From Promethearchaeota archaeon (GTDB taxonomy: Archaea; Asgardarchaeota; Thorarchaeia; Thorarchaeales; Thorarchaeaceae), in NCBI GenBank assembly GCA_027031765.1, contig JALVPN010000144.1, positions 41,384 to 75,723 of the forward strand: 34,340 nucleotides of DNA. The letters run 5' to 3'. This document shows, one piece after another, positions 9,315-20,875 of the stretch. The notes under the pieces were generated by a model that made no database searches, had not been told where the DNA came from, and saw nothing but the letters and a program-made list of their open reading frames with translations. The translations under genes and the position numbers were made by a program. The stretch's first letter is position 1; each line of letters begins with the position of its first letter.

Positions 9315-10070
9315 ATGCGCACACGAGGCCTGATATTCATGAAGACCGTCAAGAAGATCTTCAAGACAGCCCTTGATGAAGGGCGGACATTCGTCCTGGA
9401 GGACGAGGCAAAGAGAGTAATGAGGGAGTATGGGATTCCGGTCCCACCATTCGCCCCGGCGGCGACGGAAGACGAGGCCGTAGCGAGAGCAAATGAGATT
9501 GGATACCCCGTCGTGCTCAAGATACTCTCGAAAGACATCATGCACAAGTCGGATGCCGGTGGTGTCAAAGTCAACCTGAACAGCGACGAGGAAGTGAGGA
9601 GGGCATTCCAGGAGATCATGGAAAATGCCACGCAGTATGGAAAGGAGAAAGGTATTGATGTCGACCTGAGCCGCGGGGTCATTGTCACACGTTTTGTTGA
9701 GATGGGGACAGAGACCATTGTTGGTGTGACGAAAGACCCTCAGTTTGGCCATGCGCTGATGTTTGGACTCGGCGGGATATTTGTCGAAGTGCTAAAAGAT
9801 GTCACATTCCGACTGATACCACTTACAGAAATCGATGCCCGCGAGATGGTCTACGAGATAAAGGCCAAGAAGATACTGGAGGGGATACGTGGACAGCCAC
9901 CACGCGACATTGACGCCCTCGTGGAGATAATGCTCACAGTATCAAAGATGGTCGAGGAAAACCCTGAGATTGTAGAGATGGACTGCAATCCCACCATCGT
10001 ATATGAACAGGGGAAGGGTGCGGTCGTTGTCGATGCACGCATGGTAATTGAGAGTGCCTCTAGTGACTGA
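9315..10070 (+). CDS. acdB: Acetate/acyl-CoA ligase (ADP-forming) beta subunit
   Basis: ATP-grasp ACD beta motifs: GIPVPPFAPAATEDEAVARANEIGYPVVLKILSKDIMHKSDAGGVKVNL; EMDCNPTIVYEQGKGAVVVDARMVI. Follows alpha subunit. Confidence 0.93.
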   Translation: MRTRGLIFMKTVKKIFKTALDEGRTFVLEDEAKRVMREYGIPVPPFAPAATEDEAVARANEIGYPVVLKILSKDIMHKSDAGGVKVNLNSDEEVRRAFQEIMENATQYGKEKGIDVDLSRGVIVTRFVEMGTETIVGVTKDPQFGHALMFGLGGIFVEVLKDVTFRLIPLTEIDAREMVYEIKAKKILEGIRGQPPRDIDALVEIMLTVSKMVEENPEIVEMDCNPTIVYEQGKGAVVVDARMVIESASSD

Positions 10071-11247
10071 GCAGTGAGCCCAGCAGGCGGCTCAAGAGTA
10101 TCAGGCCTCTCCTCAAGTCTGATGGGCTGATGCGTCCGGACGCAGCGGGGCCCGTCGCGATGGCGAGCAGTAGGAGGAGCGACATGAGCCGAGTCACAAA
10201 CAGGGTGTGCTCTAGGTGGAAGTCGCGGTTGCCACTCGCATCGACTATCAGGAGTTCGAGGCGTCTCATCAGCGGCTCAAGGTAGTCTGCCAGCCCCGAG
10301 GTGTTGTGTAGTCTTTTCAGGGCCTGCGTCACAGCCTGCGGGTCTTGCAGGAAGTCCAGTGGGACTCCAACCGCCCCCAGCAGTGCGAGGCCCCTGTGGG
10401 TCACTCGCTCGTAGTCTGACGCGCCAAGCTGTTCCATGGCCGAGGCAGCCGCATGACATTGTGCGAGTATCCGGAGTGAGCCAGTGAGCACCTCCCGGAC
10501 GATGCGCGGTCGCGTCGGGACAACTGGTGAGATGTGGACTGCATGTGACCGTTCAAGATGAGCTGCCATTGAAGAGTCGAGCTGTGACTCGAAGTCTGGA
10601 GCCAGGATGACATCAGCAGCCTTGAGGAGTATGGGATGGGTGCCTACACGGCGGACGGCGACTAATGCCCTGAACTCGTCCGGGTCGACATGGAAGAGCA
10701 GGACGCGTGTGACATCATAGGCCCGTTCAAAGTCGTTCTCTGTAGTGGAGCTGCGTCCCCGGAGAAATGAGAGCAGAGAACACAGTATCGTCCAGATAGA
10801 TACCAGCGACTCGCACATACCATCACATGCTGCCCGGTCGTTGACCTCATGTTCATCAAGGAAACGGGCAAGCCGGTCGACCGCACCGCCGAGGCGGCTC
10901 ATGGTCGGCCCATCAATGGTGACCGCCGCGAGGGAGTCGAGGGACTCGCGAGGACTGCGTGTTGGCGGCCGCAGCACGAAGAACGGTTGGCGCCGGTCAA
11001 GTGACCACCACCTTGATGTCGAGGCGAAGTAGTCAAGGAGGTCTATGCTCGCGGTCAAGTCGTCCATGCCAGTGGTGTTGCGTCCGTCCAGATAGGCCAA
11101 GAGGCGTGAGAAGAGCGAGAGAAACCGTGCGACATGGACGCGGACCGGGGTGCCGGCCAGTTTTGCGTCTGTGAAGTGGCCCGAAATCGTATTGATATGG
11201 GCCAGACATCCTTCATCTAGGGAGGTCGCAATGATGCCACGGTACAC
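10060..11247 (-). CDS. Uncharacterised all-helical protein with internal repeats
   Basis: 395-aa ORF, no known motif recognised; three similar helix-(GR)-T-D-helix segments. Confidence 0.6.
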   Translation of the reverse strand: MYRGIIATSLDEGCLAHINTISGHFTDAKLAGTPVRVHVARFLSLFSRLLAYLDGRNTTGMDDLTASIDLLDYFASTSRWWSLDRRQPFFVLRPPTRSPRESLDSLAAVTIDGPTMSRLGGAVDRLARFLDEHEVNDRAACDGMCESLVSIWTILCSLLSFLRGRSSTTENDFERAYDVTRVLLFHVDPDEFRALVAVRRVGTHPILLKAADVILAPDFESQLDSSMAAHLERSHAVHISPVVPTRPRIVREVLTGSLRILAQCHAAASAMEQLGASDYERVTHRGLALLGAVGVPLDFLQDPQAVTQALKRLHNTSGLADYLEPLMRRLELLIVDASGNRDFHLEHTLFVTRLMSLLLLLAIATGPAASGRISPSDLRRGLILLSRLLGSLLSH

Positions 11248-11395: not shown

Positions 11396-12175
11396 CTACT
11401 TGCCAAAACGACGGGTCCTGTGCTCGTAGGACCGCAACGCACGCCAGATGTCAATCCGTCGGACTGCTGGCCAATAGACCTGGGCGAAGTACAGTTCGGA
11501 GTATGCAGACTGCCACAGGAGGAACCCGGAGAGGCGTTCCTCGCCGGATGTGCGGATGATCAGGTCGGGGTCGGGGATGCCACTTGTGTAGAGGTGGCGT
11601 TCAATGACCTGCTCGTCGATGTCGGAGGGAGCAAGCTCCCCAACGGCAATCTTCTCACCAATAGCCCTGACAGCATCGACCAGCTCAGTGCGTCCTGAGT
11701 AGCCAATGGCAACGTTGAGGATGTGGTCGCTGTAGGCCGCGGTCTCTGCTTCTGCCATCCGTATGGCCTCCTGCACATCGGGGGGGAGGAGGTCCACCCG
11801 ACCTATGGCATTGATACGGACGCGGTGCTTGTGTACATCAGGGTTTCCAACGACCTCTCTGAACTTCTCCTTTGCAATATGCATGATGTGAGAGACCTCT
11901 TCTCTGGAACGCCGGAAGTTCTCAACGGAGAAGGCATAGAGCGTGCAGACCTTGACGCCAGCTTCCCACAGGATACGGAGCACTTCCATGACCTTCTGAG
12001 CACCCTTCTGGTGACCGAACCATGGGGCGTCTACACCGTGCTCGCGGGCGTATCGTCTGTTGCCGTCGAGGATTATGCCCACATGCCGGGGCGCCCTTTC
12101 TTTGTTCAGTTGCCTGTGCAACCAGAACTCATAGAGCCGGTAGACCGGACCAGTGAGGTTCAATGCTCCGCGCAC
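11396..12175 (-). CDS. uppS: Cis-prenyltransferase (undecaprenyl/polyprenyl diphosphate synthase family)
   Basis: RHVGIILDGNRRYAREHG, TLYAFSVENFRRS, NVAIGYSGRTELVDAVR, DPDLIIRTSGEERLSGFLLWQSAYSELYF. Confidence 0.95.
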   Translation of the reverse strand: MRGALNLTGPVYRLYEFWLHRQLNKERAPRHVGIILDGNRRYAREHGVDAPWFGHQKGAQKVMEVLRILWEAGVKVCTLYAFSVENFRRSREEVSHIMHIAKEKFREVVGNPDVHKHRVRINAIGRVDLLPPDVQEAIRMAEAETAAYSDHILNVAIGYSGRTELVDAVRAIGEKIAVGELAPSDIDEQVIERHLYTSGIPDPDLIIRTSGEERLSGFLLWQSAYSELYFAQVYWPAVRRIDIWRALRSYEHRTRRFGK

Positions 12176-12389
12176 CTCTCTTCATTCAAGATGTGAGTGC
12201 TCGACATCAGCAGCTGACTGGAAAACGGCTGGGCCTCCGAGGACGGGACTCGACACAGCCCGGCCGGCCTTCATTGAGAGGCCAAGGCAGTGGGAGCTGC
12301 CAGTTTCACGTCAGCACATGACAGCCACATCTCTCACAGAATAGGTTCCAATGATGCCCTAATAGGCTTGATGCTCCGGAAACGGCAGA

Positions 12390-12761
12390 CTATATCATCT
12401 TGGCAATCTTGTCGGCCGCCCGTTTCATGTCTAGGAAGATGAGGCCGAGCTTTGCATTTGCAGTTGTGGACACTGTAAGGCACGCATTCATCCCGGCCTG
12501 GACCACAAGCAGCCAGCCGTCGGCCCCCTTGATGTTCACCTGTTCAAGAGTGCCCTTGCCGAGTTCGATGGCAGCCTTCTCACCCAAGGTCAGCATGGCT
12601 GCCGTCATGGCGGCCACCTTTGCTTCGTCCACATCAGTGGGCAGGGCAGACACGATTGGCAGCCCCTCAACACTCACAATGGCACATGCCTCAATCTCAG
12701 GAATACTTCCCTGTAGCTCGTTGAGCACACCTTCAAGAGTATCTTCGCGTGTTTCACTCAA
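12390..12761 (-). CDS. Roadblock/LC7 (MglB-like) protein A
   Basis: LNELQGSIPEIEACAIVSVEGLPIVSALPTDVDEAKVAAMTAAMLTLGEKAAIELGKGTLEQVNIKG is a typical roadblock fold; 11 nt downstream of the GTPase gene. Confidence 0.9.
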   Translation of the reverse strand: MSETREDTLEGVLNELQGSIPEIEACAIVSVEGLPIVSALPTDVDEAKVAAMTAAMLTLGEKAAIELGKGTLEQVNIKGADGWLLVVQAGMNACLTVSTTANAKLGLIFLDMKRAADKIAKMI

Positions 12762-12772
12762 TTAGCCCCACC

Positions 12773-13345
12773 TCACTTGTACAACCGCTTGAGGATTACC
12801 TCGCGCGCTATCGCTTGGAATGCGCGCTTCACACCCACACCTTGGACAGCGATGGTCTCGTAGATTGGGACGTTCCCGCCAAGTCCCAGCAGGTCAAGCA
12901 TCTCCTCGCGGGACATCCGGTTTGGCAAGTCCCGCTTGTTGAGCATCACCACAATGGGGATTTCGCGCCCCAACGCATCCCCGAGGAACAGTTTGAGTTC
13001 CTCAAAGCTCTCGACGTTCTCCTCGCGTTGATCCGGGGACGAGTCGGCAACAAAGAGGATGCCATCCGCTCCTTGTAGGACGACCTTCCTCTGATGGCGG
13101 TGTCTCTTCTGACCGGCAACCGTGAACACATCAAAGAGCACGCGACCACCGGCACTCATCGGGACATAGTCAAAGAACAGAGTCCGGTTCGTTTCGTCCT
13201 CAATCGCAGTGAACTCGCCCTTCTGTAACCCCTCGACCTTGCCATACAGCCATCTCAGTGCAGTGGTCTTTCCACCCAGCGAGGGGCCATAGAAGACCAG
13301 TTTGAGATGGATGCGACCTTCGGTATCACGCCGTATTGTAAACAC
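12773..13345 (-). CDS. MglA-like small Ras-superfamily GTPase
   Basis: G1 FYGPSLGGKTT, G3-like FTVAGQ, ILFVADSS, G4 NKRD. Confidence 0.9.
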   Translation of the reverse strand: MFTIRRDTEGRIHLKLVFYGPSLGGKTTALRWLYGKVEGLQKGEFTAIEDETNRTLFFDYVPMSAGGRVLFDVFTVAGQKRHRHQRKVVLQGADGILFVADSSPDQREENVESFEELKLFLGDALGREIPIVVMLNKRDLPNRMSREEMLDLLGLGGNVPIYETIAVQGVGVKRAFQAIAREVILKRLYK

Positions 13346-13520
13346 CTCACTGTTCCACTGCGTTGTTAGTCACCGGGACAGGGCCCGGAGAGATCATCGA
13401 GAGATGCGGACTCCATGCCACTAAGGACGCGCGACTGATACGGGCCTCGCGGCCCGGCAGGATGGTCAGGACCCAGTGTGATGGCCAGAGTCCGGGGTTG
13501 AGTGTTCTAGATTTCAGTCC

Positions 13521-13547
13521 AATAAAAGCCTTTGTGGCACAGGCCAC
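13521..13547 (-). promoter_or_regulatory. TATA-like CTTTTATT with adjacent upstream palindrome GTGGCCTGTGCCAC, putative promoter of the MglA-like gene
   Basis: Same arrangement as upstream of L10e (3583-3608); distance to the GTPase ATG about 175 nt. Confidence 0.4.
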
Positions 13548-13750
13548 TGTTGGTGTGTCGAACCAAGGACAGCTTGGGACAGACAGGGCCATTGTAAGTG
13601 GCAGGTGGAAGTTGACAGATGACTCGTTGGACATTGTTCCGGCCACACTATCGCATGCTCTCATCCGCCAGCAGTGGGCACTATGACCATATTGGGTAGC
13701 TGTGACCCGTACGGTCGGGACGATACCAGCGCCCCTACTGGAATAGAGGC

Positions 13751-14221
13751 TCACACGCGCTCCAACTTTGCCAGAGCTGACCGCAGGTCTTCCTCGTCGA
13801 TGTCCTTGTCCTTGCCAGGGGCCTCAACACCCTCGACCGAGAGGAACTCGTCCAGCTCGCGGGCAAGCTGTGCGCCCTGCTTCTTCATTACAAGACGGAT
13901 GAGCCCAATGTTGACCTCGGCTTCCGACACAACGCACAGCACACCTTTCCCGCAGGCGGAGGCGAAAATCTTGCCCTGAGAGAACTCTGAGGTGACAATC
14001 TCAAGCTCACCGATCTGTAGGTTCTTGCCCTGTTCCTCACTGGCACAGAAGACGGCACTGGCAATCGCACCGATAGAGTCAACATCAACGGGGTAGTAGC
14101 TCAACTTTGACACGTTGGCAATTGTGAGTCCCGTCTTGTCAACCAGGATTACTTTCTTGATACCTTTGTCTTGCTTGATTATCTCGGTAAGGATCTTGTC
14201 GAAAGCCTTTGGATCAGTCAT
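13751..14221 (-). CDS. Roadblock/LC7 protein B with acidic C-terminal extension
   Basis: KILTEIIKQDKGIKKVILVDKTGLTIANVSKL...VDSIGAIASAVFCASEEQGKNLQIGELEIVTSEFSQGKIFASACGKGVLCVVSE. Confidence 0.85.
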   Translation of the reverse strand: MTDPKAFDKILTEIIKQDKGIKKVILVDKTGLTIANVSKLSYYPVDVDSIGAIASAVFCASEEQGKNLQIGELEIVTSEFSQGKIFASACGKGVLCVVSEAEVNIGLIRLVMKKQGAQLARELDEFLSVEGVEAPGKDKDIDEEDLRSALAKLERV

Positions 14222-14235
14222 GATGTCAACCCCAC

Positions 14236-14544
14236 TTATGCATTCTTCAGAACCACTAGTATCAGGCCTTCTCGTGGTTCCGGTGCGATGTTTATCTGTC
14301 CTTTGGAAGTGTCAAGAGTGAGGAACGAGAGGCTCCCCTCTTTCAACTCCCTCACGGCGTCAAGGGCCTTGCCGACCAGAGAAGTGATTATTGCAGCAAC
14401 ACTCTCGGTGGTCTCTGGGTCGAGGTCGCTACTCAAGGGTAGGCCTTCCATCGTGGTGACCACTACTCCACGGACGCCCTCTTGAGCCTTAATCTTGTTG
14501 AGGATTCCCTCAAGTTTCTCTTGGCTAATCAACGATGGTATCAC
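14236..14544 (-). CDS. Roadblock/LC7 protein C
   Basis: [79 protein letters not shown]. Start reset to GTG 14544 (upstream part of the listed ORF is low-quality sequence). Confidence 0.82.
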
Positions 14545-14692: not shown

Positions 14693-16357
14693 CTACTCGT
14701 CGTCATCGTCCTCCTCGTCGTCCTCACGCACCAGTTCATCAAGTCGTGCACGCATCTTTGAGATGTTCATGGACGCCATCATATCCCTGGCCATTGCGGC
14801 CCGGAATGGTGGGGCTGCTGCAGCCTCTGCCTGCACCTGAATCTGCTCCTCAAGGTCTTCTTCCTGTTCGGCCATTATGCGGTCGGCCGTTTCAAAGGAC
14901 TCACGTGCATGAGAGGGCGCAGCAGCAGCCATGGCACGCAGGACATGTCGCAATTCCCGGATTTTTGATGCTCCGGCCTCTTGGTGCCCATGAAATGCCT
15001 CCTCCCCCGCCTTCTGTACAGCAAAGGCTGCTGAGAGGGTCGGGTCAAACGATGCGAGGAGTTCATCCTCCCGGCGTGCAACTTTCAGTTCCGTGGTGAC
15101 GGCCCGGAGATGGCGCGCACCCTCATCGTCGGTGTATTCGACCTGTATCTGGATTGGGACTGTTTCGGACTCGATTTCGTGTGTTGGTTCCATGGAGAGA
15201 TAGATCTCATGGGTATCGGCTACAGCACCGATACGGCTGCTCCGTGCCCCCGCCAGTGAGCGGGCCGCCTCAGGGGAAAGGCCGGACACTTCGCCAACAC
15301 GCACCCCGGGTGGTGTGATGACCCGGACTTCGACATCGCGACCGAGAATGCTGGCCCCAGACAGACGGGCCATGTACTTGTCCAGTTCCGAGGGCGTGAC
15401 GTAGTACATCTGTCCGCCCGTTATCTCAGGAATGAGTCCGATGGTCTGTAGTTCCATTCCTGACCCTGATGCGATGCCCACCACATCGAAGATGACACCC
15501 ACATCATTGAACATCCGGGCAATCTGCTCATAGAACTCCTTGGCCGGGGTGACCTGATAGCCCTCCAATGCGCCAACGCCCTCATTTGCAAGCCCATCGG
15601 TAAGGAGCACCACACGGCCCACTCCGCGGTGTTTCGCAATGACATATGCTGCGGCGACAGCGGGTCCAAGGGCTGTGCCACCCTTGTCACGCAGTTGCCG
15701 GACATGGTGCTTCAGGCGGTCTGCATTGGTACCCACAGGGATCATCTTCACACGGTCCAGGAGCCTGCGGGTGGCGTCCATGACCCGTTCCAAGCTGGCA
15801 TAACTGCCAGGGGGTATCTGGATGGGCGCCCCGGTCTCAAGGTCACGTATCACCACGCTGCTCTCGAACTCAATAAGACCGAACATGGTCTCGGGAGAGT
15901 TTGCGGCAAGGCTGTCAATGGAGTTACTTAGACTGCGCTTCACAGCTGCAAGATTGGCGCCGGCCATGGAACCAGAAACATCAATCACTGCAAGGAATGC
16001 CTTTCCAGCTGCGGGCGCAGGCTGTGTCTCAGTGGTAGTGGTCTCCTTGGGTGGCGGACTGACAACAAAGTCGGTATCGCTACCAGCCGAAACTATCTCG
16101 CCCTCTATCACGTTCAGCGTGCCACAGAAGGAGCACACAAAGTGACGCCCTATGCGTGAGTCTTCCTTTATCTGGTCTGCACTGAGCAGGACTGCGCCAC
16201 ATTTGTGACATGCAATCGGGCGGCCTACAATGCGGCGTGGCTCCCGGGCCAGTTCTGAGAAGTCGATACGGACTACGTAGGGGAGGCCACGGGTCACATC
16301 CCGGGATGCTGGAAACATATCCGAGCTTGTCCGTAGCATGGGCATATACAGAACCAC
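14693..16357 (-). CDS. Sec23/Sec24-like protein: zinc-finger + vWA trunk + beta-sandwich + helical region, acidic tail
   Basis: [22 protein letters not shown], zinc finger CHKCGAVL...[12 protein letters not shown], v[13 protein letters not shown]...FGLIEFESS...[22 protein letters not shown], then [51 protein letters not shown]. Order and motifs parallel eukaryotic Sec23. Confidence 0.75.
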
Positions 16358-16705
16358 CGTCAGTCCAATTGTCTGGAGAGCCTATACATGAACCGTATTA
16401 AGTGAATCGTAGATGGGGGAGGGTCAAAAGGCGAGTGGGTATGGGCTCGAAAGCCACAACGTCCACAGCTGGGGGAACACGGAAAGGGTGGGGACAGCGA
16501 GGTGTACACCGTGCATACCGGTCGGGCTCCATAACTAGCTGCGAACACTAGCCCACAGGAAACCAGACAAGGGGCAGGGACTGGACGAGTGAACTGTGGA
16601 ACAGCGTGCGGCACAGCACCAACGGCATGGAGGCCGCCCACCAACACAAGATATAAGGAGTGAGTAATCCAAACCTAGTAACGAATAGACCGCTACGGGG
16701 ACTGA

Positions 16706-17077
16706 TTGACAGTGGTTGACAAGGCCAAGATTGAGAAGATAGTTGCTGATACAATGGCAGCTAATACCGACCTCGAGGGAATTGTGGTCTGTGAGCCGAC
16801 CGGCAAAGTGATCTTTGGGCACATGATTGCCGGGGGCATAAGACATGTGGACGTCGCGGGTCTTGCAGTCAAGATAGCAGCTGACGCGTCCCAGCTTGTG
16901 AAGACTCTTGAGAAGGGCGGACTGAGAGAGGTCACAATTGCATCGGAGCTAGGAGTCGTTGTGATTCTTGGTGACGTGAAGATGGTCGTGGCAGGAATAG
17001 CCGGGAAGAGCGCGCACGAGTCCATAGGGCTACTACGGATGGCCCTCAAGCGTGCGTTGCTAGAGATGGTGGAGTAG
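16706..17077 (+). CDS. Roadblock/LC7 protein D
   Basis: KIEKIVADTMAANTDLEGIVVCEPTGKVIFGHMI...VDVAGLAVKIAADASQLVKTLEKGGLREVTIASELGVVVILGD. TTG (or GTG 16712) start; TATA-like AGATATAAGG about 55 nt upstream. Confidence 0.82.
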   Translation: MTVVDKAKIEKIVADTMAANTDLEGIVVCEPTGKVIFGHMIAGGIRHVDVAGLAVKIAADASQLVKTLEKGGLREVTIASELGVVVILGDVKMVVAGIAGKSAHESIGLLRMALKRALLEMVE

Positions 17078-17284
17078 GCAGTCAAGAAACTGTATGAGGG
17101 GCTATGGCGCAGTACAGCAGTGTATTGGCAGACCAAGACAGCACGCCGTCACCCACCCGTATTCCGACAGTATTATCTGGGTATTACCAATGATGATATT
17201 TAACCCAGTGTGTCTTCCGAATAATGTTGACACGCCAGCACATGGTATCAGTGATAACGCTCCAGAGGCAGAAGGGAGTCCGTC

Positions 17285-20200
17285 TTGGTCTACATTGAGA
17301 AGATTGTGGTCAAAGGGTTCAAGTCGTTTGGTCGCGAAACGGTGACCATCAGGCTGAGCCCGGGATTCACATGTGTTGTTGGACCTAACGGCTCCGGCAA
17401 GTCCAATGTGATTGATGCGATACTGTTCGTCTTGGGGCAACTCAGTGCAAAGACGCTGCGTGCTACTGTGTTCTCGGACCTGCTCTATAAGCCACCAAAA
17501 CCAGGTATGCCACCGGGCGCAAGGAAGGCGGTCGTGGAACTGCACTTCAACAACCAGGACCGCAAGCTGAAGGTCGATGCAGACAAGGTGGTCATTGCAA
17601 GAGAACTGGACGAGTCGGGCAAGTCGGTCTGCAGGGTTAACGGCAAGGTCGTTACAAGGGCGACTGTACTGGATGTGCTAGGGAGCATAGGTGTCGACCC
17701 AAACGGGTACAACCTTGTGCTGCAGGGTGAGATAGCACAGATGGTGAAGGTGAGCCCGAACGACCGTCGCAAGTTGATTGAAGAGATTGCTGGAATCTCG
17801 GCGTACGACGAACAGAAAGAACGTGCCCTGAAGAAGCTAGCGGAAAGCGAGGCTAATCTTGGCAAGGTGGAGGCACAGCTGCAAGAACGGCGCCGACAGC
17901 TCGAACGACTCGAGCTGGAGAGAGAGGATGCGCTCAAATATACCGAGATCCAGTCGAGGATGCAACAGATACGGGTTGACAGGCTGGCGTGGACCATCCT
18001 CAAGGCGCAGAGTAGGACTAGAACCATAAAGGAGAACCTCGTTGAGCGTGCGGAGAGGGCCAGACAGCTGGAGGAGAGGGTCAGGGAAGTCGAGAAGGCC
18101 ATAGACACCGCCGAAACAGAAATTGAAGAGATTGACCGGGCCATTGACCAGATCACAGGCAGCGAGTCTGCACGGGTGTCAGAACAACTGGGAAAGGCCT
18201 CAGCAGCACTCGAACATGTGAGAAGAGAGTTTGAGGGGCGAGCCAAGGAGCTTGAGGGCAAGAGGGCACTGCTCACCGTGACGCAGGAACAGATTGCCGG
18301 CTTGGGTCGCGAGATTGAGGAGGCCACCCGACAGATTGAGGAGAAGGAGAACAGGCTCAAAGAGGTGGTCGCCGAGGTCGAGGGCTGTGAGGACAGTATC
18401 CGACGACTTGAGACAGTTTCCGAACGGGAGCAAGCCCAGTTCCTCGAAACGACACAGAAGCTCCAAGAGCTCAACAGACTGGTCGCTGCGCTTGACGAAC
18501 AAATCTCAGAAGCCCGTTCCCAAGTCAGGTCGAACAAGAGGGACATAAGGCTCCTGTACGAGGACATAGAGGACGCCAAGGGCGCCCTTGAGAGGGCCGA
18601 GGCCGAGCGTGAGGAACTGGAGAGGACAGTTCCGGAGAAGCGCCAGGAGTTGGAAGTCCTTGAGCGTGAGGAGGAGGACACCCAGGACCAGCTGGTACGT
18701 GTCCGTGAGCAGCTGTCCAGAGTCGGTGCCGAGGTGGCCGAAACAAGCAAGATTGTCAGCGAGACCCGGGAGGAGCTCGTCAAGATACGTGCCCGGCAGG
18801 ATGCACTTAGAGAGGCTGAAGAGGCATTTCTGAGGAGGAAACGAGCTGTTGCACGAGTGCTACAGCTGAGGGACACGGGAGAAGTGGACGGGATCTATGG
18901 CACCGTTGCGGAGCTGGGCAAGATCAATCCAGACTACGCGGTCGCAATGGAGGTGGCCGGTGGAAACAGGCTCTCTTACATCGTCGTGGAAGACGAAGAT
19001 GTCGCGACCAAGTGCATAAGAGTCCTGAAACAGGAGCGTGTTGGTCGTGCGTCATTCATCCCGCTGAACAAGATCAGGACACGCGCGCCCGGAAAGCTGC
19101 CCGATGATGACGGTGTGATTGGTTTTGCACTAGACCTCGTCAGTTTCGACAAGCGACTACAGCCCGCATTCGAGTTCGTCTTCTCGGACACCATTGTTAC
19201 CGAGGACTTTGAGGCGGCCAAGCGCATCGGCTTCAGGGGCAACCGTGCGGTCTCGCTGGATGGGGACCTTGTTGAGCGTTCGGGACTGGTCACGGGAGGA
19301 CACTACCAGAGGCAGACGGCCGGGCTCACACTGCAGATTGAAGACACAACACCGGAGGTCATCACCCGCCTCGAAGGCCTTGAAAACATACTGGCTGGGC
19401 TGCTGCAGAAACAGGAGGAACTAGAAGCAACAAGACAACGTCTTGAGAAGCAGGCCCAAGACCTGTCGAAGAAGCTGTATGTTGGACGGATGGAACTCGA
19501 ACGGCTCGAGGAACGGCTTGGAGACCGTCAGACCCGTGTGTCTATGTTGACCGAGAGAATAGAGGAGAACGGACAACGTGTTGCAGCCCTAGAGAGAGAG
19601 ACCCACGAACTGGAAGAGGAGATGGACAGGCTAATAGCGGAGAAGGAACGTATTCAGGAGGAACGGGACGCCTGCAACGAGATACTTGCACGGTCGGATG
19701 TTGCAAGGGTCAACCAAGAGATACGCGATTTGAAAGTGGTGCTTGAACGCAAGGCCCGTGAGAGAGATGAGATAAAGGACGCGTTGTCTAGGCTGAGAAC
19801 CAGCGTTGAGGAGAGGTTTAGACCGCGTGTCCACGAACTCCAGAGAAGACTTGATGCCACGGAGAGAGAGATACCAACACTGGAGGCCCAAGTACGTGAG
19901 TTGGAGCAGGAACTTAAGGAAAAAGAGGCCCAGTACGAAACGCTCAGAAGCGAACATGCCCGGATAGAGGCTTCTGTGAAGGACAGACGTATCCGTCAGG
20001 CCGAGTTGAAGAGAAAACTTGCCGACCTGCGACGCGCGCTCGATGAAACAAAGGACGAGCGGACCCAGAACGACAAGGCGATATACCGGCTGCAGACCGA
20101 ACAGGCACGTCTGGAGAACGAGCTGGTCGGAGTGGAGGCCGAACTGGCCAACCTAGCCGATGTCAGAGAGGAACTGGAGAAGAGGCGGTCGATGCGGGAG

Positions 20201-20875
20201 GTGACATACAGGGAGCTCGACGAGATGACGGAGAAGATCAGGGAACTTGAGCGGGAACTCGATGAGATGGGGCCGGTCAACATGAAGTCGCTGACAGACT
20301 ATGAGGCTGAACGTGAGAGGTACGAGGAGATTGTTGACAGGAAGGTCAAACTGGAGGAGGAACACAAGGAAATCCTGCGGTTCATGGAGGAGCTGGAGGC
20401 TGAGAAGACGCGGAAGTTCCTCAGGGTGTATAATGAGATAGCGGACAACTTCTCAAGGGTGTTTGCCAAGCTCTCACCGGGTGGAGAAGCACATCTGATG
20501 CTTGAGAACCCTGAGCACCCGCTCATGGGGGGGATAATTGTAAAGTCAAAGCCGCAGGGCAAGGATGTCGTCACGCTGGATGCCATGAGCGGTGGGGAGA
20601 AGACGCTCACAGGGCTGGCCCTGATATTTGCAGTGCAGATGTACAGCCCCGCAAGCTTCTACGTCTTTGATGAGATTGATGCAGCCCTTGATGATGTAAA
20701 CGCACACAATGTTGCGACTCTCATCTCAGAGATGTCGAAGTCATCGCAGTTCATTGTGGTATCCCTGAGGGAGGCCACCGTTAGCAAGGCAGACCTGTTA
20801 ATCGGAGTTTCGAACCAAGACGGTATCTCACGGATCGTTTCGGTCGACCTGGAGGGGGTGACGAGCACTGCATGA
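17285..20875 (+). CDS. smc: SMC chromosome-segregation ATPase
   Basis: GFKSFGRETVTIRLSPGFTCVVGPNGSGKSNVIDAILFVLGQ, long coiled coils, hinge GIYGTVAELGKINPDYAVAMEVAGGNR, signature LDAMSGGEKTLTGLALIFA, Walker B FYVFDEIDAALDD. Confidence 0.98.
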   Translation: MVYIEKIVVKGFKSFGRETVTIRLSPGFTCVVGPNGSGKSNVIDAILFVLGQLSAKTLRATVFSDLLYKPPKPGMPPGARKAVVELHFNNQDRKLKVDADKVVIARELDESGKSVCRVNGKVVTRATVLDVLGSIGVDPNGYNLVLQGEIAQMVKVSPNDRRKLIEEIAGISAYDEQKERALKKLAESEANLGKVEAQLQERRRQLERLELEREDALKYTEIQSRMQQIRVDRLAWTILKAQSRTRTIKENLVERAERARQLEERVREVEKAIDTAETEIEEIDRAIDQITGSESARVSEQLGKASAALEHVRREFEGRAKELEGKRALLTVTQEQIAGLGREIEEATRQIEEKENRLKEVVAEVEGCEDSIRRLETVSEREQAQFLETTQKLQELNRLVAALDEQISEARSQVRSNKRDIRLLYEDIEDAKGALERAEAEREELERTVPEKRQELEVLEREEEDTQDQLVRVREQLSRVGAEVAETSKIVSETREELVKIRARQDALREAEEAFLRRKRAVARVLQLRDTGEVDGIYGTVAELGKINPDYAVAMEVAGGNRLSYIVVEDEDVATKCIRVLKQERVGRASFIPLNKIRTRAPGKLPDDDGVIGFALDLVSFDKRLQPAFEFVFSDTIVTEDFEAAKRIGFRGNRAVSLDGDLVERSGLVTGGHYQRQTAGLTLQIEDTTPEVITRLEGLENILAGLLQKQEELEATRQRLEKQAQDLSKKLYVGRMELERLEERLGDRQTRVSMLTERIEENGQRVAALERETHELEEEMDRLIAEKERIQEERDACNEILARSDVARVNQEIRDLKVVLERKARERDEIKDALSRLRTSVEERFRPRVHELQRRLDATEREIPTLEAQVRELEQELKEKEAQYETLRSEHARIEASVKDRRIRQAELKRKLADLRRALDETKDERTQNDKAIYRLQTEQARLENELVGVEAELANLADVREELEKRRSMREVTYRELDEMTEKIRELERELDEMGPVNMKSLTDYEAERERYEEIVDRKVKLEEEHKEILRFMEELEAEKTRKFLRVYNEIADNFSRVFAKLSPGGEAHLMLENPEHPLMGGIIVKSKPQGKDVVTLDAMSGGEKTLTGLALIFAVQMYSPASFYVFDEIDAALDDVNAHNVATLISEMSKSSQFIVVSLREATVSKADLLIGVSNQDGISRIVSVDLEGVTSTA

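Follow-up and report, generated by a model that had tools for sequence, protein, structure and literature searches.

Candidate relatives of Sec23 and Sec24 in Asgard archaea bear on how the COPII coat arose, COPII being among the founding coats of the eukaryotic endomembrane system. The window analysed here (the whole stretch of 34,340 nucleotides from a Thorarchaeial contig) contains one such candidate, which a preliminary description made from the DNA letters had called a Sec23/Sec24-like COPII coat protein. Two questions follow, namely whether the product is a true relative of Sec23/24 rather than a generic vWA protein, and whether "coat protein" is the right name for it. The gene is as follows.

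14693 to 16357, minus strand: Sec23/24-like gene, 554 amino acids from a GTG start

Reading frame and distribution of the family

The open reading frame is intact, and its frame is the conserved one. An ATG four codons in, near 16345, is probably the true start because homologues begin MPML or MPLL. The source assembly comprises 2.95 Mb in 229 contigs and is 95% complete. The protein was matched in 39 of 59 related genomes. Within the family of the source genome, most of the matches were full length, at 46 to 63% identity; given these matches and the conserved frame, the reading frame is judged to be far beyond chance. The nearest named homologues were almost all from Candidatus Thorarchaeota. 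Strong matches (E <= 1e-100) were present in approximately 80 of the 232 genomes of the phylum, by a count of rows, and spanned Thor-, Hermod-, Jord-/Freyr-, Borr- and several Loki-type lineages, plus a family designated f21. Nearly all of these ~80 genomes carried one strong full-length copy, and the Asgard homologues were mostly ~500 to 580 amino acids long. In a scan of 85,488 species with degenerate patterns, which may miss members and apparently missed family f21, all of the listed matches that ranked below the Asgard loci were bacterial, none being better than E 1e-11.

Asgard proteins with Sec23/24 domains, including those of Thorarchaeota, date from Zaremba-Niedzwiedzka et al. 2017, as cited in PMC7997004 and PMC9648965, so the earlier suspicion that the family might not be new proved right. 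The finding has been repeated in reviews (PMC7997004, PMC9648965, PMC7613921), and Asgard COPII homologues have also been noted elsewhere (PMC10307638). The present gene is one more member of the same family from the same group. The present analysis adds a structural model, a comparison of the metal site (MIDAS), a distinction from ArnB-like proteins and a description of the gene neighbourhood. Among open-licence papers, no earlier account of these was found, nor any paper on the MIDAS comparison or on the gene cluster described below.

Two loci were unusual. At L031/L067 (G023:C210) and L086 (G023:C196), one Thor genome (G023) has a divergent second Sec23/24-like gene (41%) in addition to a normal copy of which the contig end leaves only the beginning; the second gene is possibly a lineage-specific duplication, or contamination. 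Locus L050 (WJMJ01000059.1, genome G018) is titled Lokiarchaeota, has Thor-type sequence and synteny and belongs to the same family as the genome of the window; it is probably a mislabelled assembly.

Domain order of the protein

The following regions were assigned.

16106 to 16219, minus strand: Cys4 zinc finger, residues 47-84, with C50, C53, C75 and C78; Pfam zf-Sec23_Sec24 at E 0.003, below cutoff
15356 to 16000, minus strand: vWA/trunk domain, residues 120-334; Pfam Sec23_trunk at E 4.9e-10, over cutoff
15077 to 15349, minus strand: main part of the beta-sandwich, residues 337-427; Pfam Sec23_BS at E 2e-4, below cutoff, with strands in the model
14729 to 15070, minus strand: helical region, residues 430-543, followed by an acidic tail; from the AlphaFold model and the Foldseek alignment to Sec23/24

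This order, with a zinc finger ahead of the vWA trunk and a beta-sandwich and a putative helical domain after it, is that of Sec23/24. All of the motifs listed in the preliminary description were located in the 554-residue frame and in the order it gave: the N-terminal motif at residues 15-36, CGAVL within the Cys4 finger, DVSGS at residues 126-130, then the further motif quoted after DVSGS, the helices and the tail. The four cysteines were invariant in 24 aligned Asgard sequences. In Pfam, Sec23_trunk scored 39.8 bits against a cutoff of 27, and the zinc finger and sandwich matched below cutoff and in the expected order around it (22.3 bits against 33.5 for Sec23_BS), but Sec23_helical had no match in the 554-residue protein, the helices at residues 430-543 being seen in the model. 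Among 20 aligned homologues, Sec23_trunk and Sec23_BS were matched in all 20 (best E for Sec23_BS, 5.8e-10) and zf-Sec23_Sec24 in 11. Nothing follows the helical region and its acidic tail: the C-terminal gelsolin domain carried by Sec23 and Sec24 is absent, as had been anticipated.

Relationship to Sec23 and Sec24

A PDB search with the single sequence found Sec24 at no better than E 0.1, and since this was too weak, profiles were built. The family profile reached Sec24A at E 2e-19 in one continuous alignment that runs from the zinc finger up to where the helical region begins. When the Asgard profile was compared by hhalign with a Sec23/24 profile (yeast Sec23, identical to PDB 1m2o, and human Sec24A, the human sequences being taken from PDB alignments), the result was 99.2% over 425 columns, taking in the zinc finger, vWA domain and beta-sandwich without a break. 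A profile built on family f21 alone did not have the depth for a convincing match to Sec23/24. Short motifs were shared as well, ALGPA...GVGA with Sec24 and ASFD...A with Sec23.

The structural comparison agreed. The AlphaFold model (pLDDT 87.8, pTM 0.88) was searched with Foldseek, and the best 46 PDB matches were all Sec23 or Sec24 (best E 3e-29, TM 0.70 on the query). All other vWA proteins ranked lower, the first non-COPII match being a bacterial vWA protein at 4e-16, followed by ArnAB (8s05). The model of the homologue from Candidatus Lokiarchaeum ossiferum, which is 23% identical, likewise favoured Sec23/Sec24 folds. In a tree of 41 proteins, the Asgard long forms grouped with eukaryotic Sec23 and Sec24, apart from bacterial, ArnB-like and other Asgard vWA proteins (100/98), and the same split was obtained from the vWA and sandwich columns alone (98/95). 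Sec23 and Sec24 grouped together (100/99). These trees include only three eukaryotic sequences, all on long branches. The fold search and the phylogeny both favoured the main claim of the preliminary description.

Could the protein nevertheless be a generic vWA/MIDAS protein of bacterial type, with nothing that ties it specifically to Sec23/24? Pfam VWA models do match it, and some bacterial vWA proteins score ~72 bits with the Asgard profile, approximately the same as Sec24A. The probable reason is the MIDAS, which these bacterial proteins have in common with the Asgard family and which Sec24 no longer has. For this reason the profile bit score was dropped as a sole argument. The high-scoring bacterial proteins, however, matched no Sec23 Pfam model, left the zinc finger out of their alignments to the Asgard profile and fell across the 100/98 branch. 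Matches confined to bacterial-type vWA proteins, with no sandwich or helical support, would have spoken for this alternative and did not occur; contradicted by the fold matches, the profile-profile comparison, Pfam and the tree, it is very improbable.

A closer competitor is ArnB. This regulator of motility in Sulfolobus consists of a vWA domain, a beta-sandwich and a helical bundle, and the protein might be a signalling scaffold of the same type whose resemblance to Sec23/24 is only that of a shared core fold. The ArnAB complex was among the best non-COPII fold matches, ArnB-like proteins keep the MIDAS as this protein does, and MglA/MglB-type genes, which adjoin the gene here, are signalling genes in bacteria. 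In a 2026 paper, the authors of that complex ascribe the Sec23/24 core to ArnB and place the zinc finger on ArnA (PMC12852372). More generally, ArnB/vWA2 of Sulfolobus and bacterial YfbK/Caci_2163-type proteins resemble the Asgard protein in having a vWA domain inserted in a beta-sandwich, a helical bundle and a MIDAS, but they have no in-chain zinc finger, lie on the other side of the tree and give a weaker fold match. The genomes of L. ossiferum, Harpocratesius and a Hermodarchaeon each carry ArnB-like genes that are separate from the Sec23/24-like one. In addition, ArnB-like profiles failed to find Sec23/24 (hhalign, only 3.7% over 55 columns) and matched the Asgard family across the vWA domain only, while a topology grouping Sec23/24 with ArnB-like proteins instead of the Asgard long forms was rejected (AU p 0.029). 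We consider the ArnB-type reading unlikely and membership of the Asgard protein in the Sec23/24 family highly probable.

Separate Asgard ArnB-like proteins (~384 amino acids) and other MIDAS vWA proteins (420 to 500 amino acids) were recorded at L156, L157, L158 and L164, and at L159-L163; some of these genes share a genome with a Sec23/24-like gene.

Two finer assignments were given up. The protein was not called an orthologue of Sec23 or of Sec24: Sec24 was better by sequence, but the folds were equal and Sec23 and Sec24 group together. Nor were the eukaryotes placed next to a particular Asgard lineage (p 0.35 for Thor, 0.11 for family f21 and 0.38 for a position outside all Asgard), since the tests rejected none of these positions.

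An intact metal site

The vWA/trunk domain has a complete MIDAS formed by D126-S128-S130, T228 and D254. These residues were invariant in the 24 aligned Asgard sequences and in 26 of 26 Asgard copies in a residue table, and in the same table they were lost from eukaryotic Sec23 and Sec24, in keeping with the earlier remark that the site is more canonical than in eukaryotes. An intact MIDAS would hold a divalent metal and through it grip an acidic residue of a partner protein. Most simply, the ancestral protein would have held the acidic side chain of a partner through the metal, a contact that eukaryotic Sec23/24 would then have dropped. That the Asgard protein makes such a metal-dependent contact is somewhat likely.

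Comparison with COPII

Beyond the degenerate MIDAS and the gelsolin domain, eukaryotes differ in having Sec23 and Sec24 as a paralogue pair, whereas Asgard genomes normally have one gene. The catalytic (GAP) arginine of Sec23 is carried by the gelsolin domain. Since this domain is missing, Sec23-type GAP activity is not expected of the Asgard protein. The gene is most simply read as a single-copy form that predates both the eukaryotic duplication into Sec23 and Sec24 and the gain of the gelsolin domain. The "coat" wording of the preliminary description thus did not hold up: with both the gelsolin domain and a paralogue pair missing and no known coat function, the protein should be named a Sec23/24-like homologue of pre-duplication type, not a COPII coat protein. 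A membrane-coat role seems rather unlikely. The protein may serve as a cytosolic adaptor or scaffold, perhaps as a homodimer.

The gene is ordinary for Asgard archaea and evolutionarily important; its identity is secure, and its mechanism is what we infer. For in vitro tests, the single-copy Asgard proteins that retain the metal site, that of Candidatus Lokiarchaeum ossiferum among them, provide a concrete ancestral form.

Gene neighbourhood in Thorarchaeia

The gene is followed on the same strand by roadblock/LC7 and small GTPase genes, which the preliminary description had not pointed out, with a divergent gene on its other side.

14236 to 14544, minus strand: roadblock/LC7 protein a, dynein-roadblock type, likely start GTG at 14544; Pfam Robl_LC7 at 4.2e-15 and PDB roadblock proteins
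13751 to 14221, minus strand: roadblock/LC7 protein b, MglB/LAMTOR-like; Pfam, and MglB chains at E ~5e-5
12773 to 13345, minus strand: MglA-family small GTPase; PDB MglA chains at E 2e-39, Arf next at 1e-11
12390 to 12761, minus strand: roadblock/LC7 protein c; Pfam Robl_LC7 at 5.6e-17
11396 to 12175, minus strand: cis-prenyltransferase (UppS type), the conserved cluster end by synteny; Pfam Prenyltransf at 4.3e-77
17285 to 20875, plus strand: divergent SMC gene with ScpA and ScpB after it; a conserved neighbour

By script, the order Sec23/24-like gene, roadblock a, roadblock b was found in 28 of 32 Thor loci. The four exceptions were a contig end, a gene fragment, the copy in genome G004 (which lies elsewhere in that genome) and the window itself, which does have the order; the script missed it owing to an overlong, overlapping start for roadblock a. 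In 17 of the 18 Thor loci that extend far enough, the next genes are the GTPase and roadblock c. Median spacing was ~182 bp from the Sec23/24-like gene to roadblock a, ~15 bp from a to b, ~257 bp or more from b to the GTPase and ~13 bp from the GTPase to roadblock c, and the two wide gaps suggest that the block may form three transcription units.

The adjoining GTPase is closest to MglA and has retained RTLFFD, the arginine motif of MglA switch I, and one roadblock protein is closest to MglB. The MglA-MglB system has one MglB, whereas the Thor cluster has three roadblock genes with the Sec23/24-like gene at its head. In MK-D1, small GTPase genes generally lie outside operons with roadblock genes (Tran et al. 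2024, PMC10933270), and GTPase-regulator pairing is hard to predict from Asgard gene order (PMC10933270). The roadblock-GTPase cluster of Thor, Hermod, Jord and Borr lineages is a counter-example in other lineages, and the Thor-linked genes offer a specific GTPase-regulator pairing.

Complete or partial versions of this block (two roadblock genes, MglA-type GTPase, roadblock and, in some, cis-prenyltransferase) were observed across Thor-, Hermod-, Jord- and Borrarchaea, at window positions 11396-14544, L147:7360-10104, L149:6808-8984, L145:3-4483 and L144:6602-9419. Because the block occurs without an adjoining Sec23/24-like gene in G004 and in Hermod-, Jord- and Borrarchaea, it is probably the older element and the link to the Sec23/24-like gene a Thorarchaeial addition. 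This gene-free version, together with the ~180-bp spacing, led us to drop a strict operon claim. The flanking SMC-ScpA-ScpB genes, probably unrelated in function, and CoA-ligase genes are equally syntenic with the Sec23/24-like gene, and gene order is therefore a weak guide to function here. On gene order, functional coupling to the roadblock/GTPase block is plausible, if tentative.

The neighbourhood also bears on two other explanations. A metagenome assembly and a eukaryote-like protein might point to a eukaryotic contaminant or a recent transfer from a eukaryote, but the intact MIDAS, the missing gelsolin domain, the archaeal neighbours with synteny kept across Thorarchaeia and the presence of the gene in single-contig Lokiarchaeum and Harpocratesius chromosomes make this exceedingly improbable. 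Alternatively, the protein could have no coat function and act as the effector of a switch for polarity or trafficking that resembles MglA/MglB, a vWA protein marking a site under GTPase/roadblock control. The affinity of the GTPase to MglA rather than Arf, the MglB-like roadblock b and the conserved gene order in Thorarchaeia fit such an effector. Against it, the GTPase-roadblock block is older and stands elsewhere without the gene, and the spacing leaves room for a separate promoter; we regard this as somewhat unlikely.

For the preferred reading of a Sec23/24-like adaptor, the proposal is that in Thorarchaeia the MglA-type GTPase, regulated by the adjoining roadblock proteins, would recruit or release the protein in the way that Sar1 recruits Sec23/24; the GTPase beside the Asgard gene is of the MglA family and not Sar1. 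Control by the neighbouring GTPase is possible and somewhat doubtful; family membership and mechanism blended into one explanation are fairly likely. A fuller scenario, improbable as a whole, is of a pre-COPII adaptor in Asgard archaea, a Sec23/24 homodimer that depends on metal, lacks gelsolin and is switched by an MglA-type GTPase together with roadblock regulators. In eukaryotes, contacts through gelsolin and cargo would later have taken the place of the metal contact, and Sar1 that of the MglA-type GTPase.

Further features of the locus were noted. At 10060-11247, a 395-residue protein with no Pfam or NCBIfam match is a constant downstream neighbour in Thorarchaeia. The Rfam search found no RNA family in the window, including the spacer at 16358-17284 between the divergent SMC and Sec23/24-like genes; a spacer of ~700 to 930 bp recurs here in many Thor loci. 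The GTPase at 12773-13345 is 93% identical to that of G004 (L144:7836-8399), whereas the Sec23/24-like proteins of the same pair are ~45% identical, and the GTPase is therefore under much stronger constraint.
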